This document shows, one piece after another, positions 26,831 through 48,073 of a stretch of 64,000 nt of DNA (position 1 is its first letter; every line of letters begins with the position of its first letter). Under the pieces are notes generated by a model. That model ran no database searches, was not told the DNA's origin, and was given only the letters and a program-made list of their open reading frames with translations. Source of the DNA: an uncultured Elusimicrobia bacterium (GTDB lineage Bacteria > Elusimicrobiota > Elusimicrobia > UBA1565 > UBA9628); NCBI GenBank assembly GCA_903830945.1, contig CAIKVT010000039.1:1-64000 (forward strand), read 5' to 3'. The translations under genes and the position numbers were made by a program.

Positions 26831-27790
26831 ATGATGTCGCATGATAGGAACGATCTCGAGTCCTCCGATTGTCCTCTATGCGGGAGCGGCGGAAATCCTC
26901 GGTTTTTAAAATCCCGAGACTTTCTTTATACCAAAGAGGAGTTCTCCATCGCCAGGTGCGCTGCATGCGGCGCTCTCTACACTGATCCGAGAGTGAAGAA
27001 AGAGGCGATCGCGAAATATTATCCTTCAAAATATTCATTGTATGGCACGGAAGCCACGGCAAAAAGCCGGTTCTGTGGCTTAAGACAAACGATAGGGGCC
27101 GTCTTTGGGAACCCTAATCTAAGGATCCTTCGGCGGTTGCGGGGCTCCGGTGCTAAAAAAGTCCTGGAAATAGGGCCGGGTGATGGCGCTCTGCTGGAGC
27201 TTTTGCGGGAAAATGATTTTGAGGTTGTGGGCATAGAAACCAATGATGAGTGCGTGCGTCGTCTTAATGACCGTGGAATAAAATGCCTGAAGGCTGATTT
27301 GAACGAGGCCATGGCCTTTCTGCCGGTCAGCTCATTCGACGCGGTTATCATGCACCATGCTTTTGAGCATCTTTATGAGCCGATTCGCGCGTTACGGAGC
27401 ATTTCATCGTTGCTCATGGATCATGGGCTGCTATTGATTGCTCTGCCGGACGCTGGCTCTTGGGAAGCGCGGTTGTTTGGCCAATTTTGGAGAGGCCTGG
27501 ATCTTCCGCGTCACCTAGTGCATTACGACCGCATTACTATCCGGAAAGTGGTTTCTGATGCTGGGTTTGGCTCGATTCAGGTCGTTCCGGTCGCATTCCC
27601 ATCTTCTTTTGTGGAAAGCATCGGTTTTTATTTGTTCGGCGGGAGGATGCCGGTGTCGCTTTATTTCATGATTTTTTATCCCTTAAAAGCTGTCAGTTGG
27701 CTGACGATGCACCTGGTGGGGTCCGGCGCTATCGAGGTGTCTGCGCTAAAACTTGTTAGTCCATGTCAGGACGGAGATAAGGGAAAATGA
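26831..27790 (+). CDS. Zinc-ribbon class I SAM methyltransferase
   Basis: A 319-residue methyltransferase. An N-terminal CPLCG...CAACG pair suggests a zinc ribbon (residues ~12-40), followed by a Rossmann SAM domain with LEIGPGDGALLELL near residue 100, then HHAFEHLYEP near 155. Proteins of this kind are frequent in polysaccharide clusters and methylate sugars or repeat-unit termini. Product not known. ATG at 26831 is two bases past the previous stop. Stop overlaps the next start (ATGA). Confidence 0.82.
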   Translation: MMSHDRNDLESSDCPLCGSGGNPRFLKSRDFLYTKEEFSIARCAACGALYTDPRVKKEAIAKYYPSKYSLYGTEATAKSRFCGLRQTIGAVFGNPNLRILRRLRGSGAKKVLEIGPGDGALLELLRENDFEVVGIETNDECVRRLNDRGIKCLKADLNEAMAFLPVSSFDAVIMHHAFEHLYEPIRALRSISSLLMDHGLLLIALPDAGSWEARLFGQFWRGLDLPRHLVHYDRITIRKVVSDAGFGSIQVVPVAFPSSFVESIGFYLFGGRMPVSLYFMIFYPLKAVSWLTMHLVGSGAIEVSALKLVSPCQDGDKGK

Positions 27791-29184
27791 GATTGCTTCT
27801 TGTTAACGCAATTAATCATGCGCGACCTATTGAGACCGTATATCCGTCATTGGGATTGGGATACCTCTCCGCTTCGTTGAAACGGCACTTCCCGGAGATA
27901 GAAATCAAGATAATAGACAGGGAGGTCGAGCAGGCTATAAAAAGTTTCATGCCTGATGCCGTGGGGGTATCTTCAGTATCGCAGAATTTCGGAAGGGCTA
28001 TTGAAATAGGCGCCCTCTGCAGAAAGATTGGTATCCCGGCGTTCGTGGGGGGAGTCCATATTACGCTTCTTCCGGAATCCTTGCCCGAGGAATTCGTCTT
28101 TGGTGTATATGGGGAGGCCGAGGATACCATAGTGGATGTCGTCCGGTATCTTATGACAGATCCAAAACTCAAGACCCCGACAGCGTTGAATAACATCCCG
28201 GGCTTAGTCATTCATTCGGAAGTCCGCCCGAAACTAACTACACTGCGGCCGCTCATTGCCAAACTGGATTCCATCCCTTTCCCTGACCGCGCTCTCCTGG
28301 ACATCCCCATTGAAGAGACTACTTATCTTTTTACATCCAGGGGCTGCCCGTACAAATGTGCCTTTTGCGCATCAACCCGCTTCTGGGATAAAGTCAGATG
28401 GTTTTCTCCGGAATATGTGGTGGAAGAGATATCCCGCGTCGTTGGCATCTATAAGCCTCGGGCACTTTCATTTTATGACGACCTGTTTGTCGCGAATCTT
28501 CCCAGGCTAGAACGCATTGTGCAGCTGATCTGCGACAAAGGAATCGACAAGAAGGTCAAGTTCGGTTTTGCCTGTCGCGCGAATCTGGTGAATGAGAATC
28601 TGATAAGGATATTGAAGCCGTTGGATATTTCGATGATTTGTATGGGATTGGAATCAGGGTCAAAAAATACGCTTGAGTACCTAAAGGGGGAAAGCGCATC
28701 TCCGGAACAAAATATGCATGCCGTGGAGCTTTTGACCGGAGCAGGGATAAATGTACAGGGCACTTTCATAATCGGCAGCCCGGATGAGACGGAGAACGAG
28801 ATACTGCAGACCCTCGAATTCATAAAACACTCCAAGCTCACGAATTTCGAAGTCTATTTGCTTACACCATTTCCGGGCACCCCTGTTTGGGATTCCGCCA
28901 TAAAGATGGGCTTGGTTTCCAATCGCATGGATTGGAGTCGATTGGAGGTCGACTCGCGGAGTGATCTCGAAACCAGGGTGATCCTGTCAAAGATACCGAA
29001 GAATCGCCTTTCTGAACTGCTTGGCCTTTTTGCGCGGGAGAAGCAAAGAAGGCGACTGAAATATCTCCTAAGAACGGGGATGCATAATCCATTATTGGTT
29101 TTGGCAAAAATGCGAAGTTTCGTCTTTAAAAGTGTGGCTGGCTGGCGGCGTACAACACCTGCCCAAGCGAGGCGGGATAAATGA
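27787..29184 (+). CDS. B12-binding-type radical SAM protein
   Basis: A 465-residue cobalamin-type radical SAM protein. N-terminal B12-binding-like domain (MRLLLVNAINHARP, then FVGGVHITLLPE near residue 80), Fe-S motif GCPYKCAFC near 186-193, and barrel strands with GLESGSKNTLEYLKG. C-terminal ~70 residues are basic. It is coupled to the methyltransferase before and the GT after by four-base overlaps, so its substrate is probably the same glycan or glycolipid. Radical methylation at an unactivated carbon is one family reaction; the actual reaction is unknown. Confidence 0.85.
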   Translation: MRLLLVNAINHARPIETVYPSLGLGYLSASLKRHFPEIEIKIIDREVEQAIKSFMPDAVGVSSVSQNFGRAIEIGALCRKIGIPAFVGGVHITLLPESLPEEFVFGVYGEAEDTIVDVVRYLMTDPKLKTPTALNNIPGLVIHSEVRPKLTTLRPLIAKLDSIPFPDRALLDIPIEETTYLFTSRGCPYKCAFCASTRFWDKVRWFSPEYVVEEISRVVGIYKPRALSFYDDLFVANLPRLERIVQLICDKGIDKKVKFGFACRANLVNENLIRILKPLDISMICMGLESGSKNTLEYLKGESASPEQNMHAVELLTGAGINVQGTFIIGSPDETENEILQTLEFIKHSKLTNFEVYLLTPFPGTPVWDSAIKMGLVSNRMDWSRLEVDSRSDLETRVILSKIPKNRLSELLGLFAREKQRRRLKYLLRTGMHNPLLVLAKMRSFVFKSVAGWRRTTPAQARRDK

Positions 29185-30200
29185 AGATCTTGATTTATGG
29201 TGAGGGGTATTTCTTTGCGATAGCGCCGCAACTTAAAAAATCCCTTGAACAGTTGGATTGTGTCGTGGAACTTTTCAATTGGACATCGTACCTGTATACG
29301 GAGCGAGGGTACAATTTGAGAAACCGCATCCTTAACAGGCTGATGATGCCGGCGATTTCGGCTAAAATCAATCGTGATCTGATAGCATCCGTAAAAAACA
29401 ACAAATATGATCTGGTATTAGTGAACAACGGCTGGCATCTGATGGGCAGTACGATCGATGCTGTCAAAAAACATGCAAGGCATGTCGTTCTTTGGAGTAC
29501 GGATGAACTTTACAATAAGGCGTTTTCTTCATTTGTATATCCGGAGTCATATCTGCGATATGATTGCGTTTTTTGTCAAAGAAAACACTTGTTTGACTTT
29601 TACCGCAGCAAGGGGCTGAAAAAGCTGGCATATTTGCCTTTATTCTATTATCCGGAACATCATCCTGTGATTTTATCTGATGATGATAAAAAGGCATGGG
29701 GAAGTGATATCGCTTTTATGGGCACCTGGAGCAAAGAGCGGGAGAAAATGCTTGACGTCTTGGCGGGCTTGGATGTTCGGATATGGGGTGGATATTGGTA
29801 TAAAAGCAGCAAGGAATTCAAGAGACGATTTGCGATAACAAATAAGATCGCATGGCTGGAAGACATGGCCAAAGTCGTTAATTCCACCAAGATAATCATT
29901 GACGCCTTGACTGTCGGGCAGCACGATCAGATCAACATGAAGAATCTGCAAATACCGGCTTGCGGGGGGGCCCTGATAACGACTAGGACCGATGCGATAA
30001 CGGAATTGTTCGAGGAAGGCAAAGAAGTTATCTGCTATGATACATATGAAGAATTACGAGGGAAGTGTGAATATTACCTGCTTCATGAGGACGAGAGGCG
30101 GGGGATCGCGCTTAATGCGCATAAAAAGGTCGTTGCCGGCCCTAATGCGATAATCGATGTCGCAAAAACAATATTAGAAGTCGTCAGTGCTTTGCCTTAA
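29181..30200 (+). CDS. CgeB-like glycosyltransferase
   Basis: A 339-residue protein of the CgeB/YkvP-type GT-B group. MKILIYGEGYFFAIAPQL at the start, LVLVNNGWHLMG near residue 80, DIAFMGTWSKERE near 175 and the donor-side segment INMKNLQIPACGGALITTRTD near 253-273. CgeB-like enzymes glycosylate spore or cell-surface glycans; here it would act on the repeat unit. ATGA overlap with the preceding radical SAM gene. Moderately AT-rich. A G7 run lies at 29964-29970. Confidence 0.78.
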   Translation: MKILIYGEGYFFAIAPQLKKSLEQLDCVVELFNWTSYLYTERGYNLRNRILNRLMMPAISAKINRDLIASVKNNKYDLVLVNNGWHLMGSTIDAVKKHARHVVLWSTDELYNKAFSSFVYPESYLRYDCVFCQRKHLFDFYRSKGLKKLAYLPLFYYPEHHPVILSDDDKKAWGSDIAFMGTWSKEREKMLDVLAGLDVRIWGGYWYKSSKEFKRRFAITNKIAWLEDMAKVVNSTKIIIDALTVGQHDQINMKNLQIPACGGALITTRTDAITELFEEGKEVICYDTYEELRGKCEYYLLHEDERRGIALNAHKKVVAGPNAIIDVAKTILEVVSALP

Positions 30201-30220
30201 TATAAGGAGATAAGAACCAG

Positions 30221-31168
30221 ATGCAATCGAAATCTAAGCTAATATTCGTCACCGGCGGACTTGGATTCATCGGCAAACATTTTGTGAAGCGTTGTCTTGA
30301 TATGGGGCATTTCGTGACCAATGTGGACATGGTCAACTATGCGGCCGATCGGTTCGCTAATGAGGTTTTTAAAAAACATAATAATTACCGGCACCTTGAG
30401 GAAGATATCGCAGAGCTCGGTCACCTTCCGGAAAGCGATTTTCTGGTCAATTTCGCCGCCGAGTCGCATGTGGACAACTCCATCGCTAACAGCCGGCAGT
30501 TCTGCCATTCCAATGTCATCGGCGTGCAACGGTTATTGGAGCTGACACGCGCAAAGTCCGCCGCGGGCGCGCCTCATTTCATCCAGATTAGCACCGATGA
30601 GGTCTATGGTGATATCGTTGAAGGCAGGCATAGAGAGTCGGATCCGCTGCGGCCGTCTAACCCCTACTCGTCGACCAAGGCCGCGGCCGATATGCTGGTC
30701 TTCGGATGGGCGCGGACTTTCGGGCTCCGCTATAACATTGTCCGTATGACGAACAACTATGGACTGAACCAGTATCCGGAGAAGCTCATCCCTAAATCCG
30801 CTTTGCGCATGCGGCGCGGTCTGCCGGCGCTGCTGCAAGGTGACGGCAGCTATGTCCGTTCATGGCTACATGTGGAGGATGCTATTGATGCCATTCTCAC
30901 CATCATGCAGAAAGGGGAGTCCAACACCGTCTATAATGTGCATGGCAAGTGCGAATTGCCGAACAAGGACGTGGTCCTGAAGATTGCGGACATCCTTGGG
31001 GTGCCTGAAAAAGACGCGTATGTCCTCATCCCCAACCGCGTCGGACAGGATGTCCGCTACAGTCTTGATGATGCGCGCATCCGGGCACTGGGGTGGAAAT
31101 CTGTGCGTGATTTCGACAAGGAACTCAAGACTGTCGCTATGGAGGACGACTTCAAGCGCTTTCTCTGA
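30221..31168 (+). CDS. RmlB-like NDP-glucose 4,6-dehydratase
   Basis: A 315-residue extended SDR with all catalytic marks of RmlB: GGLGFIGKH, STDEVYGD (catalytic Asp-Glu) near residue 125 and PYSSTK (YxxxK) near 148. It would make NDP-4-keto-6-deoxyglucose, probably from dTDP-glucose made by RmlA (47178-48071). AAGGAG precedes the ATG by 12 nt. First gene of a four-gene cassette with a cupin, a C-methyltransferase and an oxidoreductase, which suggests a branched deoxysugar. Confidence 0.85.
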   Translation: MQSKSKLIFVTGGLGFIGKHFVKRCLDMGHFVTNVDMVNYAADRFANEVFKKHNNYRHLEEDIAELGHLPESDFLVNFAAESHVDNSIANSRQFCHSNVIGVQRLLELTRAKSAAGAPHFIQISTDEVYGDIVEGRHRESDPLRPSNPYSSTKAAADMLVFGWARTFGLRYNIVRMTNNYGLNQYPEKLIPKSALRMRRGLPALLQGDGSYVRSWLHVEDAIDAILTIMQKGESNTVYNVHGKCELPNKDVVLKIADILGVPEKDAYVLIPNRVGQDVRYSLDDARIRALGWKSVRDFDKELKTVAMEDDFKRFL

Positions 31169-31209
31169 CAAAGCCGGTCTTCATTGACTAAAGCTAGGAG
31201 GTAGATGAC

Positions 31210-31650
31210 ATGAGCAAGAAAGATGGTTCGCCAGAGATTTATCCGACTGGTCCTATCGTATCATTGTCTGCGCCTTTTGAAGATTCTCGTGGCGCTATTC
31301 AGACTCTGGTGGATGGGGGCATACAGTGCATTCAGGTCATCACGTCTAAGGAGCATACTGTTCGAGCCAACCACTATCATAAAATGGATTCGCATTATAT
31401 GTATGTGGTAAAAGGCGCAATGAAGTATTTCCATCGTCCGGCCGGAGGCAAGTCGGCCCCAACATGGTTGTTGGTGAAGGCGGGGCAAATGGTCTTTACT
31501 CCGCCCATGGTGGAACATGCGGTTGAATTCCTCGAAGACTCGGAATTCCTCAACATCACCGGCAAGCCGCGGGACCAGGGTACATATGAAAATGACCTCG
31601 TTCGCGTTAAACTTCATAGGCTTTCGGGCAAGATGGGCCGATTTAAATGA
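31210..31650 (+). CDS. Cupin nucleotide-sugar isomerase/epimerase-like protein
   Basis: A 146-residue single cupin domain: metal/ligand motif RANHYHKMDSHYMYV (residues ~52-66) and TPPMVEHAVEF (~96-106). Single cupins beside 4,6-dehydratases act as 3- or 5-epimerases or isomerases of 4-keto sugars (RmlC/FdtA/NovW-like roles). The 3,5-epimerase RmlC is larger (about 180 aa), so the exact activity is open. AGGAGGT lies 7 nt before the ATG, a strong ribosome site. ATGA overlap with the next gene. Confidence 0.75.
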   Translation: MSKKDGSPEIYPTGPIVSLSAPFEDSRGAIQTLVDGGIQCIQVITSKEHTVRANHYHKMDSHYMYVVKGAMKYFHRPAGGKSAPTWLLVKAGQMVFTPPMVEHAVEFLEDSEFLNITGKPRDQGTYENDLVRVKLHRLSGKMGRFK

Positions 31651-32891
31651 CGCTGCCTCACCATCACAAACGGACTGATTGTCGATTGTGTGCGTCTACG
31701 GTCCTGGAATGCGTGTTGCGCCTTACCCCTACGCCTCCGGCTAACGCGCTGGTGTCGGTTGCGGAGCGGGGTAAAGCGCAGGCAGCCTATCCGTTAGATG
31801 TTTACCGCTGTGCCGAATGCGGGCATCTGCAATTACTTGACATCGTTGACCCCGAAGTGTTGTTTACCCATTATCTTTACGTGTCGAGCACTTCTCCGGT
31901 CATGGTCGAATATCTTAGAAAACAATGTGTGTCTATTGTGCGGCGCTTGCAGCTTAAGCCTGGAGATTTGGTGGTCGAGTTCGGCTCCAACGATGGCACG
32001 CTGCTCCGGTTTTTTAAGGAGGCTGGAATGCGGGTTCTTGGCGTGGACCCGGCAGCTAATGTCGCCCCGGATTCCGCTGAGATTGAGACTGTGGCCGATT
32101 TCTTCAATGCTGAAGTAGGCGGACGCATACGGGAGAAATATGGCCGTGCAAAGGCGATTTGCGCTTACAATGTCTGTGCCCATATTGACGACTTTCGCGG
32201 GGTCATTGATGGCGTCCGTTCATTGCTCGCGCCGGATGGCCAGTTTGTGTTCGAGGTTGGCTACCTGCTAGATGTTTATCGTAAGACCTTGTTCGATACC
32301 ATTTATCACGAGCATGTGGATTTTCATCATGTTGAACCATTGAAGCTGTTTTTCTCCAAGTGCGGGCTTAATTTGATGCACGTCGAGCGCTCCGACATCC
32401 AGGGTGGCGCATTGGTTGGATACGTGGGAACTCCTGCGACGGGGCAGGCCGATGGCTCCGTTGATGATCTCATTGCGATGGAGCATGAGGCCGGGCTTCA
32501 CCGTGCCGACACCTTCCGCCGGTGGGAAGCCGCAATCGCGCAGCGAGGCGAGGAACTTATGATGCTGTTGCGTGGGCTTAGGGCTAAAGGCAAGTCCATA
32601 GCGGCTTATGGCGCGCCGGCTAAGGCCACCACACTGATGCATCATTTCGGGTTAGATAGTTCGCTGCTTGACTATATTGTTGACGACAATCCGCTCAAGC
32701 AGGGGATGCTCACCCCCGGCTTGCATATTCCTGTCTGCTCTCCAGATGTGCTCTATCAGAAAAAACCAAATTATGTTCTTATGCTTGCTTGGAATTTCGC
32801 CGCTCCTATTATCAAAAAGCACGGCCGGTATGCCGGAGGTGAGAGTCGATTCATCCTGCCGCTTCCGAACCTTGCCATCGTCGGGGAGTAG
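31647..32891 (+). CDS. Sugar C-methyltransferase (NovU/TylCIII-type)
   Basis: A 414-residue three-part SAM enzyme: N-terminal zinc-binding domain (CRLCAS ... CAECGHL), central SAM domain (VVEFGSNDGTLLRFF near residue 115) and C-terminal Methyltransf_14 domain (AAYGAPAKATTLMH near 315). This architecture is that of NDP-4-keto-6-deoxysugar C-methyltransferases (TylCIII, EvaC, NovU). HEHVDFHH near 225 holds the conserved active-site residues. It would add a methyl branch to the product of the upstream dehydratase and cupin. Coupled by ATGA to the cupin gene. Confidence 0.88.
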   Translation: MTLPHHHKRTDCRLCASTVLECVLRLTPTPPANALVSVAERGKAQAAYPLDVYRCAECGHLQLLDIVDPEVLFTHYLYVSSTSPVMVEYLRKQCVSIVRRLQLKPGDLVVEFGSNDGTLLRFFKEAGMRVLGVDPAANVAPDSAEIETVADFFNAEVGGRIREKYGRAKAICAYNVCAHIDDFRGVIDGVRSLLAPDGQFVFEVGYLLDVYRKTLFDTIYHEHVDFHHVEPLKLFFSKCGLNLMHVERSDIQGGALVGYVGTPATGQADGSVDDLIAMEHEAGLHRADTFRRWEAAIAQRGEELMMLLRGLRAKGKSIAAYGAPAKATTLMHHFGLDSSLLDYIVDDNPLKQGMLTPGLHIPVCSPDVLYQKKPNYVLMLAWNFAAPIIKKHGRYAGGESRFILPLPNLAIVGE

Positions 32892-32896
32892 CGTTG

Positions 32897-33850
32897 ATGC
32901 AAATCGGCTTGATTGGGGCCGGGCGCTGGGGTCAGCGCTATATTGAGACGATTGGTCGGATGTCGGGGATAAGCCTTGCCTACTTGGCGAGTGGAAATCC
33001 AAAGAGCGCTGCACTCGTTCCTTCGGGCTGCAGGGTAACTCCGCGCTGGCGTGATCTTATGGAAGGCGATAGCTGTCTTGACGGCATCATCATAGCTGCG
33101 CCCCCGGAGACTCACCTTGAGATAGCGACTGGAGCCATACGCGCCGGTATCCCGGTTTTGGTTGAGAAACCCATGACGCTCTCTCTACCGGATGCCGAGA
33201 GTCTTGTTAAAGAAGCAATGGATTGCGGCGTTTTGACGATGATCGGCCACACGCATCTCTTCAGTGCCGCCTTCCGCGAGTTGAAAGCAAGAGGGCGGTC
33301 TCTGGGCAGATTGAAGAACATACGATCGGCGGGTGGCGGTTGGGGGCCATTCCGTCCGGACACTCCACCGTTGTGGGATTGGGCTCCGCATGACCTCGCC
33401 ATGGCTATCGATCTCTTGGGAAATTATCCTATACGCATCGAGGTCAAGCGGACTGGGCGGATACAACAGCCAAAGGGAATTGGCGAGGCCGTTATAATAA
33501 TACTCGGTTTTGAGTCTGGGGCTCGTGCCGAAATTCATATCAGTAACATGCAGCGGCATAAACAAAGGGTGCTTGAGGTTACCTATGAGGGCGGCTCTCA
33601 AATCTATGATGACCTTGCTCCTCATAAACTTGTTTTCTGTTCTTCGTCGGGATCAACGCCGGAGCCGGTTATTATTGAACACTCCATGCCGCTTGCCAAC
33701 CTTGTGGGTGAGTTCTGCCGCGCCATAGGCGAAGGCCAGCACAGTCATCCGAGCCTGCGGTTAGGTCTGCAGGTAGTTAAAGCGCTGGCTGAATGCCAAG
33801 CGGCTCTAGATTCCGCTGAGGGGAATAAATCGACACGCTCTGTCGGTTAA
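32897..33850 (+). CDS. Gfo/Idh/MocA-family sugar oxidoreductase
   Basis: A 317-residue NAD(P)-dependent oxidoreductase. IGLIGAGRWGQRY is the nucleotide-binding loop, EKPM (Lys near residue 96) the catalytic EKP, and APHDLAMAIDLLG the H..D.. segment near 170. In deoxysugar routes this family reduces 3- or 4-keto groups. Its position after the C-methyltransferase suggests the final ketoreduction of a branched sugar, a role that a RmlD-like SDR (NovS) plays in noviose synthesis. ATG at 32897; an in-frame TTG precedes it. Confidence 0.82.
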   Translation: MQIGLIGAGRWGQRYIETIGRMSGISLAYLASGNPKSAALVPSGCRVTPRWRDLMEGDSCLDGIIIAAPPETHLEIATGAIRAGIPVLVEKPMTLSLPDAESLVKEAMDCGVLTMIGHTHLFSAAFRELKARGRSLGRLKNIRSAGGGWGPFRPDTPPLWDWAPHDLAMAIDLLGNYPIRIEVKRTGRIQQPKGIGEAVIIILGFESGARAEIHISNMQRHKQRVLEVTYEGGSQIYDDLAPHKLVFCSSSGSTPEPVIIEHSMPLANLVGEFCRAIGEGQHSHPSLRLGLQVVKALAECQAALDSAEGNKSTRSVG

Positions 33851-33865
33851 ACCTTCCAAGTTCAT

Positions 33866-34774
33866 ATGCAATCGCATATTTCTATTCCGCAAGTCTGCGT
33901 AGTTGTCCCCAATAAGGATGGGCTATCACATCTTTCCTATTCCTTGCCGTCTCTTTTTGCGTCCAGGTATCCTAATTTCCAAGTGGTTCTTGTCGACGAC
34001 AGATCCTCGGACGGGTCGGTGGAATTTGTTAAGACAGAATTCCCGACGATCCGGATTTTAAATAATCATTCAAAGCGTGGGTTCGCGGCGACCGTGAATG
34101 TCGGCGCAAGGTATGCCATCGAGCATGGGGCGGAATTTGTCGCTGTTTTCAATAGTGATATCAAAATACAGGAATGGTCGATTGCAGGCGCAGTCGACCT
34201 TTTTGCGGTCGGAAAAAATATTGGAGTCGTTGGGTTTCGTGAAATCATCGGTGATTCCGGCAGTTATTCTGCTCTTTCTGCCCCGGGGAGGGTCGCGTGG
34301 GTTGTGACGGAAAATGTCACCGGATGTTTTTTTATGGTGAAAACTTCCGTATTCTTGAAAATAGGATTTTTTGATGAAGATTATTTCATGTACGGAGAGG
34401 ATAATGATTTTTTTTACAGGGCCCGGAGGGCCGGGTTCAAAACCATCAGCGCGGATATCCCGGTTTGGCATCATGGTGAAGGGACCATAGGCGGCCGTCC
34501 GCTTCTTTCGACATGGCTCGGATATCGCAATGCTGTCCGGTTTGCAGTAAAAAACTTGGGACCGTTGGGTGTGCTGCGCATAATCGGGGTGTTATTCTAT
34601 TGCGGATGTTTTCCTCATCAAGAAGCAGAGTGCCGTGATCTGTATCTAAAAAGGTTAAGACGTTTTAATCCTCTTTTGAATCTGCTCTTGGTTGCAGCCA
34701 GTTGCGCGTGGAATCTGTTTTATCTCCCAAAGACCTTGTGGTTACGGTTTTTTCCTCTAGGTCCGCAGTCATGA
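33866..34774 (+). CDS. Glycosyltransferase family 2
   Basis: A 302-residue GT-A fold inverting glycosyltransferase: VVVPNKDG, VLVDDRSSDGS (residues ~40-50), FNSDIKI (DxD-like Asp near 93) and EDNDFFYRARRAGF (ED motif near 178). C-terminal hydrophobic segments are membrane-associating. It follows the branched-sugar cassette by 15 nt and may be its transferase. A T8 run occurs at 34408-34415. Relatives include rhamnosyltransferases. Confidence 0.82.
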   Translation: MQSHISIPQVCVVVPNKDGLSHLSYSLPSLFASRYPNFQVVLVDDRSSDGSVEFVKTEFPTIRILNNHSKRGFAATVNVGARYAIEHGAEFVAVFNSDIKIQEWSIAGAVDLFAVGKNIGVVGFREIIGDSGSYSALSAPGRVAWVVTENVTGCFFMVKTSVFLKIGFFDEDYFMYGEDNDFFYRARRAGFKTISADIPVWHHGEGTIGGRPLLSTWLGYRNAVRFAVKNLGPLGVLRIIGVLFYCGCFPHQEAECRDLYLKRLRRFNPLLNLLLVAASCAWNLFYLPKTLWLRFFPLGPQS

Positions 34775-35606: not shown

Positions 35607-35678
35607 AAAATGGTAACCATCGATGGCATTTAGATCCCATCTTGATTTTTGCTGGGCAGGGGCGTGGGGAAATATAAC

Positions 35679-37151
35679 ATGAGGGTGCAATTAATATCCA
35701 CTTCTTTGGAAGACAAAGTGCGCGCCCCTGTCCGTAATAATTCTTATTATCCTTTAAGCCTGGCTTATCTTCATGCATATTTAGAAAAGCAGGGACATGT
35801 TGTTGATACGCTTTTTTTAAACGATTATTCATATAACGACTGCTATCAAACCGTTATAGATAAACTGCGGGAATTCCAGCCAGAAGTAGTCGGGTTTAAT
35901 ATATTGACTAGTAATCGTGTCAGCACTTATCATCTCATCGACTACATTCACAAACACCATCAAAATATAAAAATTATATTGGGCGGGATTCATACAAGTG
36001 CTATGTATGAACAATTGATTGGGCAATACCCATACGTTATTGCGGTCATTGGCGAAGGAGAGGTCACGGCGGCCGAGTTGCTGATTAAAATTCAAAACAA
36101 TGAGGCTATTGATGGTGTTTTAGGCATAGCTTTTTACAAAGAAAATGGAATGGTGGTAACGTCTCCGCGGCCTTTAATAAATGATTTAGATCAATTGCCC
36201 TTTCCTAAGCATGAAGCGCTTTTCCATTCAGATGCTATTGCTGCTTGCATATTAACTACAAGGGGATGTCCGTTCCGCTGTAGTTTTTGTGCGCTTGATT
36301 TGGTTTCAAGAGGTAAGGTTAGGTATCGGTCCATTGGAAATGTTATGGAGGAACTCGAGCATATAAAAAAAGTTAATCCAAAAATAAAACGCATATGGAT
36401 CCATGACGACACTTTTTTCCTTAAAAATGAAAGAGTTATTGAATTTTGCGATGAAGTCGTGAGGCGGAAATTAAATTTTGAATTCATTTGCAGCGCTCGC
36501 TTCAAGCCGATATCTGAAAAAATAGTGCCAGCATTGGAACGGGCGGGATTCAGCACTGTGCTTTTTGGGCTGGAAAGTGGCGCGCCCTCTGTATTGGAAC
36601 GTGCGGGAAAACACATTGCTCCGCAAGATGCGCTTTACGCCGTCGGACTTTTTAAAGATTCTCCGATAACGGTCGGGGTTTTTTTAATAGTAGGTTTGTC
36701 CGGGGAAAATGATGAAACAATTGACGAAACAATAGACCTGGTCGTGAAGCTCCAAAAAATAAAATATCTTTTATACCTTGCCGAGCCTAATCCTTGTTTT
36801 GTTTATCCGGGGACTCAACTTTACGATATGGAAAAACGAGCAGGACGGCTGAGCGATGGATATTGGTTAACCGATAAGCCCGTTCCAATTTTTACTGTCG
36901 AACATGATGAGGATCAGTTGATCAGGTACGGAGAGCGACTTTTTGATCATATTGCATTCAGTCGTCTTTTTACTATAAATGGTTTTAGGGCTCAAGTCAA
37001 AATGCTTCCTTACATCATTAGACATCTTATAAAAATGCCTTTTTATGCGAGGATTGAGTTTCTTAATACCGCATTTTATAAATATAAAATTAATTATCCT
37101 CGATTGTATAAAGCAATAAGATTTTTTTATCGAAGTTTGAAAAATGCGTAG
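35679..37151 (+). CDS. B12-binding-type radical SAM protein
   Basis: A 490-residue cobalamin-type radical SAM protein. B12-domain-like N-terminus (MRVQLIST, ILGGIHTSAMYEQ near residue 103), cluster motif GCPFRCSFC near 196-203, IHDDTFFLKN in the barrel and GLESGAPSVLERAGKH near 300. Long C-terminal extension. The gene is AT-rich, like the one at 1643, unlike the GC-rich core. GGGGAAAT precedes the ATG at 35679 by 7-8 nt; the earlier in-frame start at 35649 is not family-like. Reaction unknown. It overlaps wzx by eight bases. Confidence 0.85.
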   Translation: MRVQLISTSLEDKVRAPVRNNSYYPLSLAYLHAYLEKQGHVVDTLFLNDYSYNDCYQTVIDKLREFQPEVVGFNILTSNRVSTYHLIDYIHKHHQNIKIILGGIHTSAMYEQLIGQYPYVIAVIGEGEVTAAELLIKIQNNEAIDGVLGIAFYKENGMVVTSPRPLINDLDQLPFPKHEALFHSDAIAACILTTRGCPFRCSFCALDLVSRGKVRYRSIGNVMEELEHIKKVNPKIKRIWIHDDTFFLKNERVIEFCDEVVRRKLNFEFICSARFKPISEKIVPALERAGFSTVLFGLESGAPSVLERAGKHIAPQDALYAVGLFKDSPITVGVFLIVGLSGENDETIDETIDLVVKLQKIKYLLYLAEPNPCFVYPGTQLYDMEKRAGRLSDGYWLTDKPVPIFTVEHDEDQLIRYGERLFDHIAFSRLFTINGFRAQVKMLPYIIRHLIKMPFYARIEFLNTAFYKYKINYPRLYKAIRFFYRSLKNA

Positions 37152-38775: not shown

Positions 38776-39822
38776 ATGAATAAACATACAAAGAAAGCTT
38801 TGATTACGGGCATAACCGGGCAAGACGGCTCTTATCTGGCGGAGTTGCTGCTATCAAAAGGTTATGAGGTACACGGCCTTATAAGACGAGCGAGCACGTT
38901 CAATACCGGCCGTATCGAGCACATCTTCAAAGACCCTCACACTAAAGGCGTCCGCCTTCTGCTCCATTACGGCGATCTCTCCGACAGCAGCAACATCAGT
39001 CGGCTGATGGAGAAGATCGATCCTGACGAAGTGTACAACCTCGGCGCGCAAAGCCACGTGCGCATCAGCTTCGACATGCCGGAATACACTTCGGATGTCG
39101 ATGCTTTGGGTACTCTGCGCATGCTCGACGCCATACGGGAATCTGGCATCAAAACCAGATTCTATCAGGCCTCGTCGAGCGAGATGTTCGGCAAGGCGGC
39201 CGAGATTCCCCTCAAGGAAACCTCCCCCTTCTATCCTCGCTCGCCCTATGGGTGCGCCAAGGTCTACGGCTACTGGATAACGAAGAACTACCGCGAGAGC
39301 TACGGCCTGTATGCTTGCAATGGGATCTTGTTCAATCACGAGTCCGAGCGCCGGGGCGAGACATTCGTCACTCGCAAGATCACGCGCGGCCTAGCCAGGA
39401 TCAAGCTGGGCAAGGACCAGAAGCTTTTCCTTGGCAACCTGGACGCCAAGCGAGACTGGGGCCACGCCAAGGATTACGTGTACGGCATGTGGCTCATGCT
39501 CCAGCAGGACCGACCGGACGATTATGTGTTGGCGACAAACGAAACGCATACCGTCCGCGAATTCGCCGAGGAAGCCGCCCGGCAGCTGGGCTTTAAGTTG
39601 GCCTGGAGAGGCAAAGGCATCAAGGAAAAAGGCGTGGACACAAAGACCGGGAGAATCATCATCGAGATAGACCTGAAATATTTCCGTCCCGCCGAAGTGG
39701 ACGTGCTGCTGGGTGATTACACCAAAGCCCATCAAAAGTTCGGTTGGGAGCCGAAGATCAAGTTCAAGGAACTGGCGAAGATGATGGCACAAGCCGATTA
39801 TGAGCATGAAAAAAAACTCTAG
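38776..39822 (+). CDS. gmd: GDP-mannose 4,6-dehydratase
   Basis: A 348-residue SDR enzyme that converts GDP-D-mannose to GDP-4-keto-6-deoxymannose, precursor of GDP-L-fucose, GDP-colitose and others. [37 protein letters not shown] (YxxxK) and [17 protein letters not shown] are all Gmd signatures, and the length is normal. It begins a three-gene GDP-sugar module and overlaps the next gene by 23 bases. Confidence 0.95.
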
Positions 39823-40750
39823 GATCTATGTCGCAGGACACGCGGGCATGGTCGGTTCCGCGATCGTGCGGGCACTGCGCGCCGAGGGGTTCTCTCGGAT
39901 CATCACGGCCTCTCATGAAGAACTGGAGCTGCGCGACGCCGTTGCTGTGGCTCGTTTTTTCAAGGACCAGAAACCTGAATACGTCTTTCTTGCCGCAGCA
40001 AAAGTTGGGGGAATACAGGCCAATAGGAATCATCAGGCCGATTTTTTGCGTGACAATCTTGAGATTCAGAACAATGTCATACATAACTCTTACTTGAACG
40101 GGGCCGAGGAGCTGGTGTTCTTGGGGAGTTCATGCATCTACCCCAGGGAATGCCCCCAGCCGATGAAGGAAGAGTACCTGCTGACCGGGCCCGTGGAGCC
40201 CACTAACGAAGGTTACGCTCTGGCTAAGATTGCGGGCTTGCGCTTGGCTCAGTTCTACCAGCAGCAGTATGGACTCAAGTGCATCAATCCAATGCCCTGC
40301 AACATCTACGGCTTCAATGACAACTTCGATCCGGCGAACTCCCATGTGCTGGCGGCTCTGGTGAAAAAATTCGTCGATGCCAAGGACGCGAATACGCCGG
40401 AGGTGGTCCTTTGGGGCAGCGGCATCGCCAGGCGCGAATTGCTGCATGTAGATGATCTGGCCAGGGCGCTGCTCTTGCTGGTGGAGAAGTGGCACTCTCC
40501 CGAGATCATCAATGTGGGCTGCGGCACGGACGTGTCCATAAAGGAACTGGCGACCATGGTCGCCGAAAAAACAGGTTATAACGGCAAGCTCGGCTGGGAC
40601 ACTTCCATGCCCGACGGGATGCTGCGCAAATGTCTGGACGTGTCAAAATTAAATGCTTTGGGCTTCCGTCCGGAGATTGCTTTGGCGCAGGGCCTTTCGC
40701 AGGTCATCGCCGATTGCCGAGGCTTGAAGCAAGGACTTGCAAAATCATGA
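39800..40750 (+). CDS. GDP-L-fucose synthase / GDP-L-colitose synthase
   Basis: A 316-residue epimerase/reductase of the Fcl/WcaG family: [19 protein letters not shown] near residue 75, [13 protein letters not shown] near 110 and GYALAKIAG (YxxxK) near 140. Fcl makes GDP-L-fucose from the Gmd product. ColC makes GDP-L-colitose by the same chemistry on the 3-deoxy intermediate. The segment [16 protein letters not shown] looks more like ColC to me (MPCN-Y), and a ColD-like gene follows with an ATGA overlap. I prefer ColC but cannot exclude Fcl. Confidence 0.88.
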
Positions 40751-41919
40751 TACCACTGATGAAAAACGCCTTTATAGACGAGCAGAAGACAAAGTCTGCC
40801 CTGGCGGAATTCATACTGCAGGCTCCGCGCCTTAGCATGGATGCGAAATGTCTCGAATTCGAGAAGAGATTTGCGGACTGGCAGGGTCGGAAGTTCGCTG
40901 TCCTCTTCAATAGCGGCGGCAGTGCCAACCTGGCTATGCTGCAGGCGATGAAGAATCTCGGTTTGCTCAAAGATAACGACAATGTCGGCTTCTCCGCGCT
41001 CACTTGGTCCACCAACACGATGCCCATCATACAGATGGGCATGACGCCGGTCGCGGTGGATTGCGGACCGCGTACCTTGAATGTGATGTCGTCCGATCTC
41101 CAGGAGCGCCTGCGCACGTCGAAGCTGGCGGCCATGTTCATAACCAATGCGCTTGGGTTTGCGGGCGATCTGGGCAGGATAAAGAACCTTTGCCGCGAAA
41201 AGGGCATCATCCTTATCGAGGATAGCTGCGAGGCTTTGGGCAGCGAACTGCCTTCCGGGAAGACCGGAAATTTCGGTATGGCCGCCAGTTTTTCATTCTT
41301 CGTGGCGCACCATATGTCCACCATCGAAGGCGGCATGGCCTGCACGGATGACGCGGAGCTGGCTGAGATGTTGAGGATCGTGCGTGCCAACGGTTGGGAC
41401 AGAAATTTGGAGCCGCGGCAGCAGGCAAAATGGCGCGATAAATTCGCGGTCAAAAATGAATTCGAATCTAAATATACTTTCTACGATCTTGGTTTTAATC
41501 TTCGCCCCACCGAGATCACCGGGTTTTTGGGCTTGCGGCAATTGGAAGCGTTGGAGGGCACGCTCATAAAGCGCGAGAGCAACTTCAAGCTCCTGGACTT
41601 GGCTGCGAGGCAGAACGACGAACTCATTACCGTCGATTGTGCGCATCTCTCGCGCGTGGCCAACTTCGCTTTCCCGGTGCTTTGCAAGACCCAGCAGGTC
41701 AGGGAGAAATATCTCGCCAAGTTCACGGCCGCGGGCGTCGAGATACGCCCCATGATCGCGGGCAACATCCAGCGGCAGCCTTTTTATGGGAAATATGTGC
41801 GGCGGATGTTCGAGCTGCCGGGCACGGATTTCATCCATGATTGCGGCTTCTATTGCGGCAATTATCCAGAACTTACAGATGGGGATCTTGCTGTGATCCG
41901 CGATTGTCTGAAAAAATAA
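40747..41919 (+). CDS. colD: ColD-like PLP-dependent GDP-4-keto-6-deoxymannose 3-dehydrase
   Basis: A 390-residue DegT-fold enzyme. The PLP lysine is replaced by His: FSFFVAHHMSTIEGG instead of the FSFY.xK. motif. That swap marks 3-dehydrases (ColD, RfbH/E1), which remove the 3-hydroxyl, not aminotransferases. Length (~388 aa) and Gmd/Fcl-type neighbours match ColD of GDP-L-colitose synthesis, not RfbH (437 aa with Fe-S cysteines). The stop of the preceding gene overlaps ATG 40747 as ATGA. A relic of the same family lies at 4089-4193. Confidence 0.85.
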   Translation: MIPLMKNAFIDEQKTKSALAEFILQAPRLSMDAKCLEFEKRFADWQGRKFAVLFNSGGSANLAMLQAMKNLGLLKDNDNVGFSALTWSTNTMPIIQMGMTPVAVDCGPRTLNVMSSDLQERLRTSKLAAMFITNALGFAGDLGRIKNLCREKGIILIEDSCEALGSELPSGKTGNFGMAASFSFFVAHHMSTIEGGMACTDDAELAEMLRIVRANGWDRNLEPRQQAKWRDKFAVKNEFESKYTFYDLGFNLRPTEITGFLGLRQLEALEGTLIKRESNFKLLDLAARQNDELITVDCAHLSRVANFAFPVLCKTQQVREKYLAKFTAAGVEIRPMIAGNIQRQPFYGKYVRRMFELPGTDFIHDCGFYCGNYPELTDGDLAVIRDCLKK

Positions 41920-43798: not shown

Positions 43799-44708
43799 CA
43801 TGCCGCCCTGCAATCTATGTCACGGCCGGGAATACAAACTGCTCTATCGCGGCAATATCGTTGATGATATGAGCCCCCGTTTTTCTCAATATGCCTACTA
43901 CGATGATATTTACCGTTGTTGCAGTTGTGGGCTAGTCGTTCAGCAGTGTCGCCATAGTCGCGAAGCCATCGCCCGCTTTTTGAAGGCGGAAAAGTACCTT
44001 GATGAGGCCATCGGCGGCCTCAATCTTATAGAGAAATACGTGCAGTTCGAGCACCTTATCCGCCTGATCGAGAAATATCGCCCCATCGCCGGCAGCAAGC
44101 TTCTTGACGTGGGAGCAAACACCGGTGTCTTCCTGTCGACCGTGCGCTCACGGGCGGCGGCAGTACGAGGCATCGAGCCTTCCGAAGAGGCCGCGCAAAT
44201 CGCTCGGACCAAGTTGGGAGTGGACGTGCAGGCCGGCTTGATCGGTGAGGTGGAGCTGCCCGACGCGGCCTTCGATCTCATCACGATGTTCGACGTGGTC
44301 GAGCATCTGACGGATCCCGCCGATGACCTCGCCCATCTGTTCCGCAAGCTCGCGCCCGGCGGCGCGATCTTCATCACCACCCACGACATCGAGACCTGGT
44401 TCGCCCGCCTCTCCGGGCCCCGCTACCCGATGCTGATGTACCAGCACTTCTTCCATTTCTCCCCGGCCACGCTCTTGCGCATGCTGGAGCAGGCCGGGTT
44501 CCGGGTGCTGGGCTACGACAGGTTCCTCAAGTCATGGAGCTTCGAGTATCTGTACCATTTGATAGAAAAGAAATGGCCCGGGACTCGGCTGGCGTGGACG
44601 CTGCGGATGCTGCTCTCGCCTGGCATGGCGGTGCCGGCCATCCGCAAGGCTCGAATCACCTCTCCACAGCGGGACTTTTTTATGATCGCGGCCGAGCGCC
44701 GCCGATGA
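43791..44708 (+). CDS. Zinc-ribbon class I SAM methyltransferase
   Basis: A 305-residue methyltransferase. N-terminal CNLCHG and CCSCGL pair (zinc ribbon), then LLDVGANTGVFLSTV (SAM motif I, about residues 105-119), GIEPSEEAA, and TMFDVVEHLTDP near 165. Same general design as the gene at 26831, but clearly a different protein. Its 3' end overlaps the convergent radical SAM gene by 29 bases. Likely modifies a glycan component. Confidence 0.82.
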   Translation: MNDMPPCNLCHGREYKLLYRGNIVDDMSPRFSQYAYYDDIYRCCSCGLVVQQCRHSREAIARFLKAEKYLDEAIGGLNLIEKYVQFEHLIRLIEKYRPIAGSKLLDVGANTGVFLSTVRSRAAAVRGIEPSEEAAQIARTKLGVDVQAGLIGEVELPDAAFDLITMFDVVEHLTDPADDLAHLFRKLAPGGAIFITTHDIETWFARLSGPRYPMLMYQHFFHFSPATLLRMLEQAGFRVLGYDRFLKSWSFEYLYHLIEKKWPGTRLAWTLRMLLSPGMAVPAIRKARITSPQRDFFMIAAERRR

Positions 44709-46095
44709 ATCTCAGGCCCAAGAGGGCGTTTTTGACCATCATCTTCAAGGCGGCCCAGGAGCGTATTTTCGCGATCTGGCCCAGGATCACCGACGGACGC
44801 GTGTAGAAGCGGCGATAGAATTCGGCCTGTTTTTTTAGTATCAATTCACGCGTCAAGTTCTTGGGCACAAAAACCGGCGTCCAGTAGTTCAGGGATGTCC
44901 AATCATCTTCCTGATATGTCCCGTAGGCTTGGGCTTTTTCATAGGACTGTGTTCCCGGGATCGGCGTGTTGATCGTGACTATCACGTCGGTGAGAGGCAG
45001 TGAAGTCGCGAATTTTATGGTTTCCTCGATGGTTTGCGGTGTGTCTATATGATGGCCGATCATGAAAAATCCCGATACGCGCAAGCCCAGCTTCCGACCC
45101 CATCGCGCCACATTCTCGATCTGTTCCAGGGTTATGCCCTTTTTAATGAAGTCCAGCACCTGTTGGTTGCCGCTTTCGATGCCGATGCGTATCTGCCAGC
45201 AGCCCTGGTCGCGCATGAACTTCAAGGTTGCATAGTCCAGATTGTTGACGCGGGTCATGCAGGTCCATGGGAATGAAATGTGCTCATCGTTGAGTAACTC
45301 AAAAATCTTTCGCAGCCTGGCCTTGCCCAGAACGAAAGTGTCATCGAGGAAGGCGATCTCGCGTGCGCCATATTCGGTGATGACCTCCTTGATCTCATGG
45401 GCCACGTATTCTGCCGAAAAAAACCTCGTCTTGCGGCCGAAGGTGTTGTTGTCGCAAAAAATACATTCATACGGGCATCCGCGGCTGGTCATGATGCTCA
45501 CAACCGGTTCTTTGCGGAAGGCGCCCACAGGCGGTTTGTAAACAGAAACGTCACGGCACAACTCCCGCGCGGGGAAAGGTATGGAATCCATGTCCGCTAT
45601 GTAGTCGATCTTGGGGGCATCGTTGCGGCCGGGCCAGTACAGGCTGGGAATATCCTCCAGCTTTCCCTCTCCCGAAACAAGATGGCGCACCAGCTTTAAA
45701 AACGCCACCTCGCCTTCGCGCACTATGCCGAAATCAAAGGCCCCTGTGGCCATCGTGGGAAGGGGCATGGCCGTCATGTGCGGGCCGCCTATCACTATTT
45801 TCGCGTGCGGTAATTGCTGGCGTGACATCTCCGCCAGTGCCCGAGTGTTGCGGAACGCCACTGTGGTCGAAGTGATGCCGATTATGCTGGCGCCCGCGCT
45901 TTTCAACTCCTCCACGACGTCTTCATGAACGAGTCCTTCCGCCTCGGCATCTATCACCCGCACGGTCAGTCCGGCTTTTTTGAGGTATGCCGCCAGGTAA
46001 AAAATACCCAGCGGCATCTGATGGCCGCCGATGTCCCCGATATCCTTGCCATAACGCTCGGCACTTGTTATGAAGGGATTTATGAGAAAAATCAT
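44680..46095 (-). CDS. B12-binding-type radical SAM protein
   Basis: A 471-residue cobalamin-type radical SAM protein. It opens MIFLINPFITSAERYGKDIG, has a B12-domain GGPHMTAMPLP near residue 103, the cluster motif GCPYECIFC at Cys 207/211/214, LDDTFVLGKARL, and GIESGNQQVLDFIKKG near 295. Its start overlaps the stop of the GT2-GtrA gene (ATGA), so the two are translated together. Substrate unknown; the neighbouring polyprenyl-sugar synthase/flippase suggests a polyprenyl-linked sugar. Confidence 0.85.
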   Translation of the reverse strand: MIFLINPFITSAERYGKDIGDIGGHQMPLGIFYLAAYLKKAGLTVRVIDAEAEGLVHEDVVEELKSAGASIIGITSTTVAFRNTRALAEMSRQQLPHAKIVIGGPHMTAMPLPTMATGAFDFGIVREGEVAFLKLVRHLVSGEGKLEDIPSLYWPGRNDAPKIDYIADMDSIPFPARELCRDVSVYKPPVGAFRKEPVVSIMTSRGCPYECIFCDNNTFGRKTRFFSAEYVAHEIKEVITEYGAREIAFLDDTFVLGKARLRKIFELLNDEHISFPWTCMTRVNNLDYATLKFMRDQGCWQIRIGIESGNQQVLDFIKKGITLEQIENVARWGRKLGLRVSGFFMIGHHIDTPQTIEETIKFATSLPLTDVIVTINTPIPGTQSYEKAQAYGTYQEDDWTSLNYWTPVFVPKNLTRELILKKQAEFYRRFYTRPSVILGQIAKIRSWAALKMMVKNALLGLRFIGGARPRS

Positions 46096-47177: not shown

Positions 47178-48071
47178 CTATGCGGTCAACGACCTTTGCT
47201 TGGCGTCGTGGCTCAGCAAGTCCCATAGATAGGCTGAGTAGGGGCTTGCACCCATGCGCCGGGCTTCTGCTGCGACTTGTCCGGTATCGATCCAGCCGGC
47301 TTGCAGGGCGATCTCTTCCAGGCAGGCGACCATCAGGCCTTGGCGATCCTGGACTGTCTGGACGAAGCTCGCTGCTTCCATCAAGCTCTGATGCGTCCCG
47401 GTGTCGAGCCAGGCGATGCCGCGCCCCATCTTGAGGACCCGCAGTTTTCCGCGTTTGAGGAATGCCCGATTAAGATCGGTGATCTCCAGCTCACCGCGGG
47501 CGCTGGGTCTGAGTTTGGCGGCCTCCGCGCATACTTCCGGACCGTAGAAATACAGACCGGGTACTGCGTATGGGCTTTTAGGCCGTTTTGGTTTCTCCTC
47601 AAGAGTGACGGCCTTGCCTTTGGCGTCGAATGAGACGACGCCGTAGCGCTCCGGGTCTTTGACCTGGTAGGCGAAGATCAGGCTGCCGCGCTGGGTTTTT
47701 GCCGCTTGCTGCAGCATCTCGGTCATGCCGTGGCCGTAAAGGATGTTGTCTCCCAGGATCAGGCAGGCGGGTTTTCCGGCCAGGAACTCGCGGCCGATGG
47801 TGAAGGCCTGGGCCAGTCCTTTCGGGCGCGGCTGCTCGGCGTAGCTGAAGGCCATGCCCAGGCGTTTGCCGTCGCCCAAGAGTTCGCGGAAGCCCGGCAG
47901 GTCGTGAGGTGTGCTGATGATCAGTACCTCGCGGATGCCCGTCAGCATGAGCACGCTGAGCGGATAATAGATCATGGGCTTGTCGTAGACCGGAAGGATC
48001 TGTTTGCTGATGACCTTGGTGCATGGGTAAAGTCGTGTCCCTGCCCCGCCTGCCAGGATGATTCCTTTCAT
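47178..48071 (-). CDS. rmlA: Glucose-1-phosphate thymidylyltransferase
   Basis: A 297-residue nucleotidyltransferase that makes dTDP-glucose from dTTP and glucose-1-phosphate. It begins [35 protein letters not shown]... (signature loop and the KPM), with ILGDNILYG near residue 105 and [19 protein letters not shown] near 160. It would feed the RmlB-like dehydratase at 30221. There is no rmlC or rmlD pair in the window, so rhamnose is not obviously made. Two bases separate it from the ligase gene upstream. Confidence 0.92.
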
Positions 48072-48073
48072 TT

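Follow-up and report, generated by a model that had tools for sequence, protein, structure and literature searches.

Four contiguous genes in an uncultured Elusimicrobia bacterium raise the question of which sugar they make, and for which molecule. An earlier note had read them as a parallel of noviose synthesis that supplies a C-methylated deoxysugar to a surface glycan. Here, in a window of 64,000 nucleotides (the whole stretch of DNA analysed), we find that the cassette is an RmlB-fed variant of a widespread core of cupin, sugar C-methyltransferase (CMT) and Gfo/Idh oxidoreductase, which elsewhere is usually fed by a UDP-glucuronate-decarboxylase-like (UXS-like) enzyme.

The four genes and their neighbours

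All four genes are present and contiguous on the plus strand. The first (30221-31168, 315 aa) encodes an RmlB-like NDP-sugar 4,6-dehydratase, the putative first step towards a 4-keto sugar. It is followed by a single-domain cupin (31210-31650, 146 aa), a putative epimerase or ketoisomerase acting before or with the CMT, and by the three-domain SAM-dependent CMT (31647-32891, 414 aa), whose gene overlaps that of the cupin by 4 bases. The last is a Gfo/Idh/MocA oxidoreductase (32897-33850), a putative terminal ketoreductase. Its open reading frame (32894-33850) opens with TTG, but the orthologue in one of the related genomes (L044) begins at the in-frame ATG, 32897, which probably marks the true start; TTG 32894 is also possible. 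ORF and profile checks confirmed the four frames and the families assigned to them, including two departures from noviose enzymes that had already been pointed out, i.e., a 146-aa single-domain cupin and a Gfo/Idh reductase in place of an SDR.

On the same strand, the cassette is flanked by a glycosyltransferase (29181-30200; PF13524, 82.6 bits), which possibly transfers the branched sugar, and a family 2 glycosyltransferase (33866-34774; PF00535, 47.8 bits). A B12-binding radical SAM protein (27787-29184; PF02310 and PF04055) lies further upstream. The window is rich in glycosyltransferases, and also carries gmd and fcl (38776-40750) and, on the minus strand, the glucose-1-phosphate thymidylyltransferase gene rmlA (47178-48101; TIGR01207, 449 bits), found where the earlier note had placed it. 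An own-genome search gave this as the sole full-scoring rmlA. It may supply dTDP-glucose and presumably also serves rhamnose; thus, it is not the dedicated counterpart of NovV that had been proposed.

The dehydratase belongs to the GDP_Man_Dehyd/Epimerase family, has 2HUN as its closest PDB match (1.5e-68) and retains the catalytic T-D-E and Y-x-x-x-K residues (STDEVYG at 124, PYSSTK at 148). It scores 288.5 bits against TIGR01181, under the equivalog cut-off of 365.1, which a second gene of the same genome, on contig C58, exceeds. Because of this score, the nucleotide is predicted to be probably, but not certainly, dTDP. A search for 2,3-dehydratases (PF03559) gave no match in the genome, but neither did it in the control genomes, so that absence does not follow from it.

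The CMT exceeds the cut-off for its Zn-binding N-terminal (PF08421, 64.8 bits), SAM (PF13489, 54.3 bits) and C-terminal (PF08484, 159.6 bits) domains, and its best PDB match is MtmC (4RV9, 1e-89), followed by TcaB9 (3e-63). Residues Y76, Y78, H179, Y220, E222 and H223 are invariant across 50 aligned CMTs including TcaB9 and MtmC; the Tyr, His and Tyr-x-Glu-His positions are presumably catalytic, following their roles in TcaB9. The enzyme thus neither falls among non-sugar methyltransferases nor has lost its active site. Since it is a sugar C-methyltransferase by family and keeps its catalytic residues, the cassette product is very likely a C-methylated nucleotide sugar. With the abundance of glycosyltransferases in the window, this bears out the idea that a surface glycan receives a C-methylated deoxysugar.

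Recurrence of the cassette and exchange of its donor enzyme

The cassette is conserved as cupin-CMT-X-Gfo in alphaproteobacteria, Prochlorococcus, Magnetospirillum, Elusimicrobiota, Chloroflexi and one archaeal MAG. Among the 80 best relatives of the cupin, 78 lie inside a CMT-bearing cassette, and in 77 the cupin is directly upstream of the CMT. The two form an almost obligatory pair, and the Elusimicrobiota phylum holds about 16 further cupin-CMT loci. In addition, a seven-gene block (27787-34774) is syntenic with one distant Elusimicrobiota genome and one proteobacterial MAG. By this recurrence and synteny, the cassette is not a chance association. C-methylated surface sugars had been supposed to be rare; this is doubtful at the gene level, since a CMT of this family occurs in 28 of 57 relatives.

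The gene at X differs among loci. It is a UXS-like SDR in 70 of 80 and RmlB-like in only 4. The UXS-like protein is closest in the PDB to human UXS1 (2B69, 2.8e-59), and its motifs SSSE and GPRACYDESK are conserved (61 sequences). In the archaeal MAG (L130), a single 764-aa ORF extends over the CMT as well as the UXS-like match, i.e., the two are fused, which links them functionally. We infer a single C-methylation and reduction core fed by an interchangeable 4-keto-sugar donor enzyme, of which the UXS-fed cassettes would yield C-methylated pentoses. The recurring cassette in unrelated bacteria and the variant with RmlB in place of UXS are new here. Our literature search found no paper in which a cupin and a sugar CMT are joined in such a cassette, none that names 3-C-methyl-xylose, and no named example of a C-methylated pentose.

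The rarer RmlB variant also occurs in a Burkholderiales MAG and in Mycobacterium sp. IS-3022. In the latter, the four genes lie near an NRPS end module with thioesterase, an MFS transporter, two EryCIII-like glycosyltransferases and SfLAP (Gap-like), a setting that resembles glycopeptidolipid loci. In M. avium serovar 14, such lipids bear a 3-C-methyl sugar, 4,6-dideoxy-4-formamido-3-C-methyl-mannose, as named in a title that PMC6268951 cites.

In four other genomes, from distant taxa (L044, L057, L058 and L059), the dehydratase (74-83% identity) again accompanies cupin, CMT and Gfo/Idh, and with these genomes only the neighbouring glycosyltransferase and radical SAM genes are shared otherwise. 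In L044 and L057, the glycosyltransferases at 29181 (69-77% identity) and 33866 (42-43%) keep their positions, and the radical SAM protein is 58-61% identical. This co-occurrence speaks against a reading in which the CMT acts on a GDP-linked or other sugar of another branch and the RmlB-like gene serves a separate pathway. The nearby gmd and fcl agree with that reading, as does the fact that the nucleotide specificity of the dehydratase is a prediction, but we regard it as very improbable.

Proposed pathway and the methylated carbon

The pathway is built on observed gene content and synteny, on the swap of enzymes, on catalytic motifs that are intact and on the structure of the clades. We lean, with only slightly better than even confidence, towards an NDP-linked 6-deoxy-C-methyl-hexose as the cassette product, destined for the surface glycan of the same locus. 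The RmlB-like enzyme would convert NDP-glucose, probably dTDP-glucose, into NDP-4-keto-6-deoxyglucose. The cupin would invert a centre adjoining the ketone, most likely C3 and perhaps C5, to prepare the substrate. The CMT would then remove a proton from a carbon adjoining the C4 ketone and add a methyl group from SAM, at C3 more likely than at C5. Finally, the Gfo/Idh enzyme would reduce the remaining ketone, and a neighbouring glycosyltransferase (29181 or 33866) would transfer the sugar. Substrates, cupin reaction, methylated and reduced carbons and glycan target are all inferred.

The cupin step could be either epimerization or 3,4-ketoisomerization. The protein scores under the cut-off for Cupin_2 (25.3 bits) and PF14667 (21.6 bits), and the profile search gave no match to PF00908 (RmlC/NovW) or PF05523; the PF00908 genes of the genome sit on other contigs. 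Its motif is RxNHxHKxDxH...H, with H55, H57, K58, D60, H62 and H103 invariant in 46 sequences. No relative was found in the plasmid collection. Comparison of its AlphaFold model (pLDDT 91) with NovW/RmlC-type folds, as had been suggested, placed RmlC/ChmJ at Z 11-12, below the CapF cupin (12.4) and the sugar 3,4-ketoisomerases HCAN_0198, FdtA, WlaRA/B and QdtA (13.2-12.2). In the model, ketoisomerases thus appear slightly ahead of epimerases, close to a tie.

The oxidoreductase also bears on this step. It exceeds the cut-off for NAD-binding PF01408 (59.6 bits), also matches PF22725, and keeps an E91-K92-P93 motif and a D162...H166 dyad, invariant in 53 sequences. Those Gfo/Idh enzymes known to us from NDP-sugar pathways work at C3 rather than C4. 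If the cupin were a ketoisomerase like FdtA or QdtA, the ketone would move to C3, the CMT would methylate C2 or C4, leaving the Gfo/Idh enzyme to act as a 3-ketoreductase. Besides the closest folds, this agrees with the cupin RxNHxHK, which resembles RGxHAHR of FdtA and is aligned with it in hhalign, with the membership of the characterised sugar 3-ketoreductase 3RBV in the Gfo/Idh superfamily, and with Streptomyces sp. NBC_00390, where a Gfo/Idh gene lies between NDP-hexose 2,3-dehydratase and CMT genes. However, the missing PF05523 match, an hhalign probability of just 18% against a small FdtA alignment (4% against a small RmlC alignment) and the weak similarity to 3RBV (8e-5) count against it, and we know of no sugar CMT that acts beside a C3 ketone. 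Furthermore, distant, sister-group cupin-CMT pairs accompany a DegT aminotransferase closer to the C4-acting perosamine synthase (281 bits) than to QdtB (222), so that the ketone probably stays at C4. The ketoisomerase reading is, in our view, unlikely, though worth keeping in mind. Its extension to all loci, in which one core would take UDP-4-keto-pentose in most genomes and NDP-4-keto-6-deoxyhexose in the window, with the cupin as 3,4-ketoisomerase and methylation at C2 or C4, is quite unlikely; to our knowledge, such methylation has no example in the sugar CMT family.

Returning to the favoured epimerization route, the C3-acting habit of Gfo/Idh enzymes, the leaning of the cupin fold, the dehydratase score and the syntenic radical SAM protein, which the route does not need, count against it.

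Is the methyl group placed on C3 or C5? The CMT tree took its references from the PDB and from the C-1027 cluster (plasmid gene L137), in place of NovU, TylCIII and EvaC. Cassette CMTs form a single, fully supported clade (100/100) outside every reference, TcaB9 being more distant, and RmlB-type CMTs are nested within it (99/94). A call of C3 or C5 from this tree was rejected: since C3-type MtmC and C5-type SgcA3 are sisters, the CMT sequence says nothing on the carbon. The statement that the carbon is not determinable from sequence thus stands for the CMT alone. Cassette context makes C3 likelier, because the UXS-like enzyme gives a pentose, C5 methylation of which has no precedent known to us, and the CMT clade is shared.

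A true noviose-type route would methylate C5 of an epimerised 4-keto sugar and yield a C5-branched (5,5-dimethyl) deoxysugar. The types of step are alike, and the window CMT shares 39% identity with that of the C-1027 cluster (plasmid SGLP1), whose sugar we take to be 5,5-dimethylated; this enzyme is no more distant than C3-type MtmC. But cupin and reductase are of other families, the donor enzyme of most relatives is UXS-like, and CMTs beside RmlC-type epimerases in the same phylum belong to a different, distant group (30-35% identity). We consider this route highly doubtful.

Relation to known systems

The literature search found no assigned product for this branched-sugar pathway, common to Prochlorococcus, magnetotactic bacteria, uncultured alphaproteobacteria, Elusimicrobiota and one mycobacterium. 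From it, glycans of abundant marine bacteria are predicted to contain C-methylated sugars, perhaps pentoses. The natural swap of donor enzymes before a constant core is useful for studying substrate and carbon choice by sugar C-methyltransferases.

The noviose pathway of novobiocin likewise uses a 4,6-dehydratase, a cupin, a three-domain CMT and a reductase on an NDP-4-keto sugar. The supposed match with NovT-NovW-NovU-NovS holds for general chemistry and the order of pathway steps, but not for gene order or enzyme families. Membership in that cassette was rejected: the cupin lacks PF00908, and the fourth gene is a PF01408 Gfo/Idh enzyme rather than an SDR like NovS. The window CMT also falls in a separate clade (in a tree without NovU), and methylation is likelier at C3 than at the C5 of noviose.

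Virenose of Coxiella is a C3-methylated 6-deoxyhexose of surface LPS involving a TylCIII-type CMT, and its route was proposed in silico from GDP- or TDP-sugars; the available text of that proposal does not mention a cupin or Gfo/Idh enzyme (PMC3539893). The D-mycarose 3-C-methyltransferase MtmC shares the three domains and catalytic residues of the window CMT, but is 38.7% identical and groups with antibiotic CMTs in a clade of its own. The sugar 3-C-methyltransferases TcaB9 and 5T64 have family and catalytic residues in common with it, at 34-35% identity and in a more distant clade. The cupin resembles FdtA/QdtA and the CapF cupin domain in fold and HxH motif, but scores below family cut-offs and forms a distinct sequence family. 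Lastly, the closest PDB match of the oxidoreductase is 3C1A (6.6e-56), recorded as a 'putative oxidoreductase' with no assigned function. Because it is 76% identical to the cassette Gfo/Idh enzyme of Phaeospirillum (L098), it is a solved structure of this very family, and an orphan structure gains a probable role.

Gene products of the cassette

The four genes described in the earlier note (30221-33850) were found where it placed them, on contig C39 of the 3.24-Mb source genome. All are tightly packed: the cupin gene runs 4 bases into the C-methyltransferase (CMT) gene, and no more than 5 bases separate the CMT stop from the Gfo/Idh start. Domain searches assigned the first product, the dehydratase, to GDP_Man_Dehyd/Epimerase, the second, weakly, to Cupin_2 with no match to PF00908, the CMT to PF08421, PF13489 and PF08484, and the fourth to GFO_IDH_MocA. 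The dehydratase, whose nearest solved sequence is PDB 2HUN, retains STDEVYG and YSSTK and scores below the RmlB equivalog cut-off. A full-scoring rmlB and an rmlC lie on other contigs of the source genome, and its one full-scoring rmlA is the gene at 47178. The closest solved matches of the CMT are MtmC (4RV9, 1e-89) and TcaB9, and its Tyr, His and Tyr-x-Glu-His positions, which we take to be catalytic after TcaB9, are invariant in 50 aligned sequences. The structure nearest to the Gfo/Idh protein is 3C1A, which carries no functional assignment and is 76% identical to the Gfo/Idh protein of a Phaeospirillum cassette; similarity to the sugar 3-ketoreductase 3RBV is weak. The three CMT domains and the intact catalytic positions make a C-methylated nucleotide sugar very likely, and the earlier proposal that the genes serve to make such a deoxysugar for a surface glycan is supported.

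A cassette family and its RmlB-type variant

Within the phylum, a cupin search found a CMT gene adjacent to almost every homologue, in either order. When 84,980 genomes were scanned with an alignment of the cupin, 243 relatives emerged; among the best 80 loci, 78 have a CMT alongside, 77 have the cupin directly upstream of it, and 70 carry not an RmlB-like but a UDP-glucuronate-decarboxylase-like (UXS-like) SDR. The best PDB match of this SDR is human UXS1, and SSSE and GPRACYDESK are kept in 61 sequences. A Gfo/Idh gene usually comes next, several contigs stopping before that point, and a family-2 glycosyltransferase gene often stands ahead. CMT and UXS-like SDR are further linked by their apparent fusion in a 764-aa single ORF of a Woesearchaeota MAG (L130:8380-10671), which matches both. 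An in-frame TAG interrupts the CMT of one Elusimicrobiota cassette (L075/L037); this gene may be defective, or its sequence may contain an error.

RmlB-like cassettes are few: the window, L044 (Elusimicrobiota of a different class), L057 (a Burkholderiales MAG), L058 (Mycobacterium sp. IS-3022), L059 and L077. The phylogenetic comparison suggested earlier placed the CMT with none of the reference enzymes in the tree: although the bootstrap fell short of full convergence, every cassette CMT falls into a single clade (100/100), separate from MtmC, TcaB9, 5T64, SgcA3 and CDP-type CMTs. Since the RmlB-type CMTs are nested within this clade (99/94), the RmlB form probably arose when an RmlB-like enzyme took over the place of the UXS-like one, and later passed from phylum to phylum. 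The window, L044 and L057 share upstream B12 radical SAM and glycosyltransferase genes and a downstream GT2 gene: the seven genes have moved together as one block. The cassette family, the donor-enzyme swap and the breadth of occurrence are new.

The glycan locus of the window has three B12-binding radical SAM genes (27787-29184, 35649-37151 and 44680-46095), none of whose products exceeds any NCBIfam cut-off; the first is the one whose position next to the cassette is conserved in L044 and L057. Consecutive gmd (567 bits), fcl-like and RfbH-like DegT genes at 38776-41919 are predicted to form, beside the cassette, a branch that makes a GDP-sugar of the fucose, perosamine or colitose type. L058 (3-16046) looks like a glycopeptidolipid locus: the neighbours of the four genes there include the end of an NRPS together with its thioesterase, two glycosyltransferases of EryCIII type, an MFS transporter and an SfLAP gene.

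Cupin reaction and methylated carbon

Seven cupin residues (R52, H55, H57, K58, D60, H62 and H103) are invariant in 46 sequences, and the four histidines, at cupin positions, could be metal ligands. In the fold comparison of the AlphaFold model (mean pLDDT 91), RmlC and ChmJ (Z 11-12), the epimerase type with which the earlier note proposed to compare the cupin, came after sugar 3,4-ketoisomerases (Z 13.2-12.2) and CapF (Z 12.4, 19-20% identity), with gaps so small that these are near ties; profile comparisons to FdtA and to RmlC were both weak. We lean towards an epimerase rather than a ketoisomerase on account of more distantly related cupin-CMT pairs of this phylum, which adjoin a DegT aminotransferase closest to the C4-acting perosamine synthase. 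Three such pairs (L048, L052 and L053) suggest amino C-methyl sugars akin to kansosamine.

3-C-methyl-mannose occurs in a Helicobacter pylori O-antigen (PMC12961483), and the title of a reference cited in PMC6268951 names a 3-C-methyl hexosamine in the M. avium serovar 14 glycopeptidolipid. From these precedents and the pentose donor that we infer for the UXS-like sister cassettes, C3 would be likelier than C5; the earlier caution about the methylated carbon is upheld, and the substrate, like this carbon and the cupin reaction, is inferred.

Other C-methyl-sugar loci and noviose

CMTs are present in 28 of 57 relatives in the phylum, and different CMT groups have different cupins, the cassette group having its own type. 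In the group at 42-47% identity, the CMT is in most cases accompanied by a WbuC cupin and an SDR; this group includes a second C-methyl-sugar locus of the source genome on contig C45 (L056:6079-10285). This encodes an RmlB-like protein in which SSPEAYG replaces STDEVYG, a methyltransferase, a WbuC cupin (128.7 bits), a classical SDR and a CMT, parts of the arrangement recurring in relatives L198-L200. Its step types are those of the window cassette, carried out with a non-homologous cupin and reductase. RmlC-type epimerases stand beside some CMTs of the 30-35% group, which argues against the window cassette as a noviose route. The match to NovT-NovW-NovU-NovS drawn earlier is superficial: the cupin lacks PF00908, and it is in the 30-35% CMT group, not in that of the window cassette, that a NovW-like arrangement occurs.
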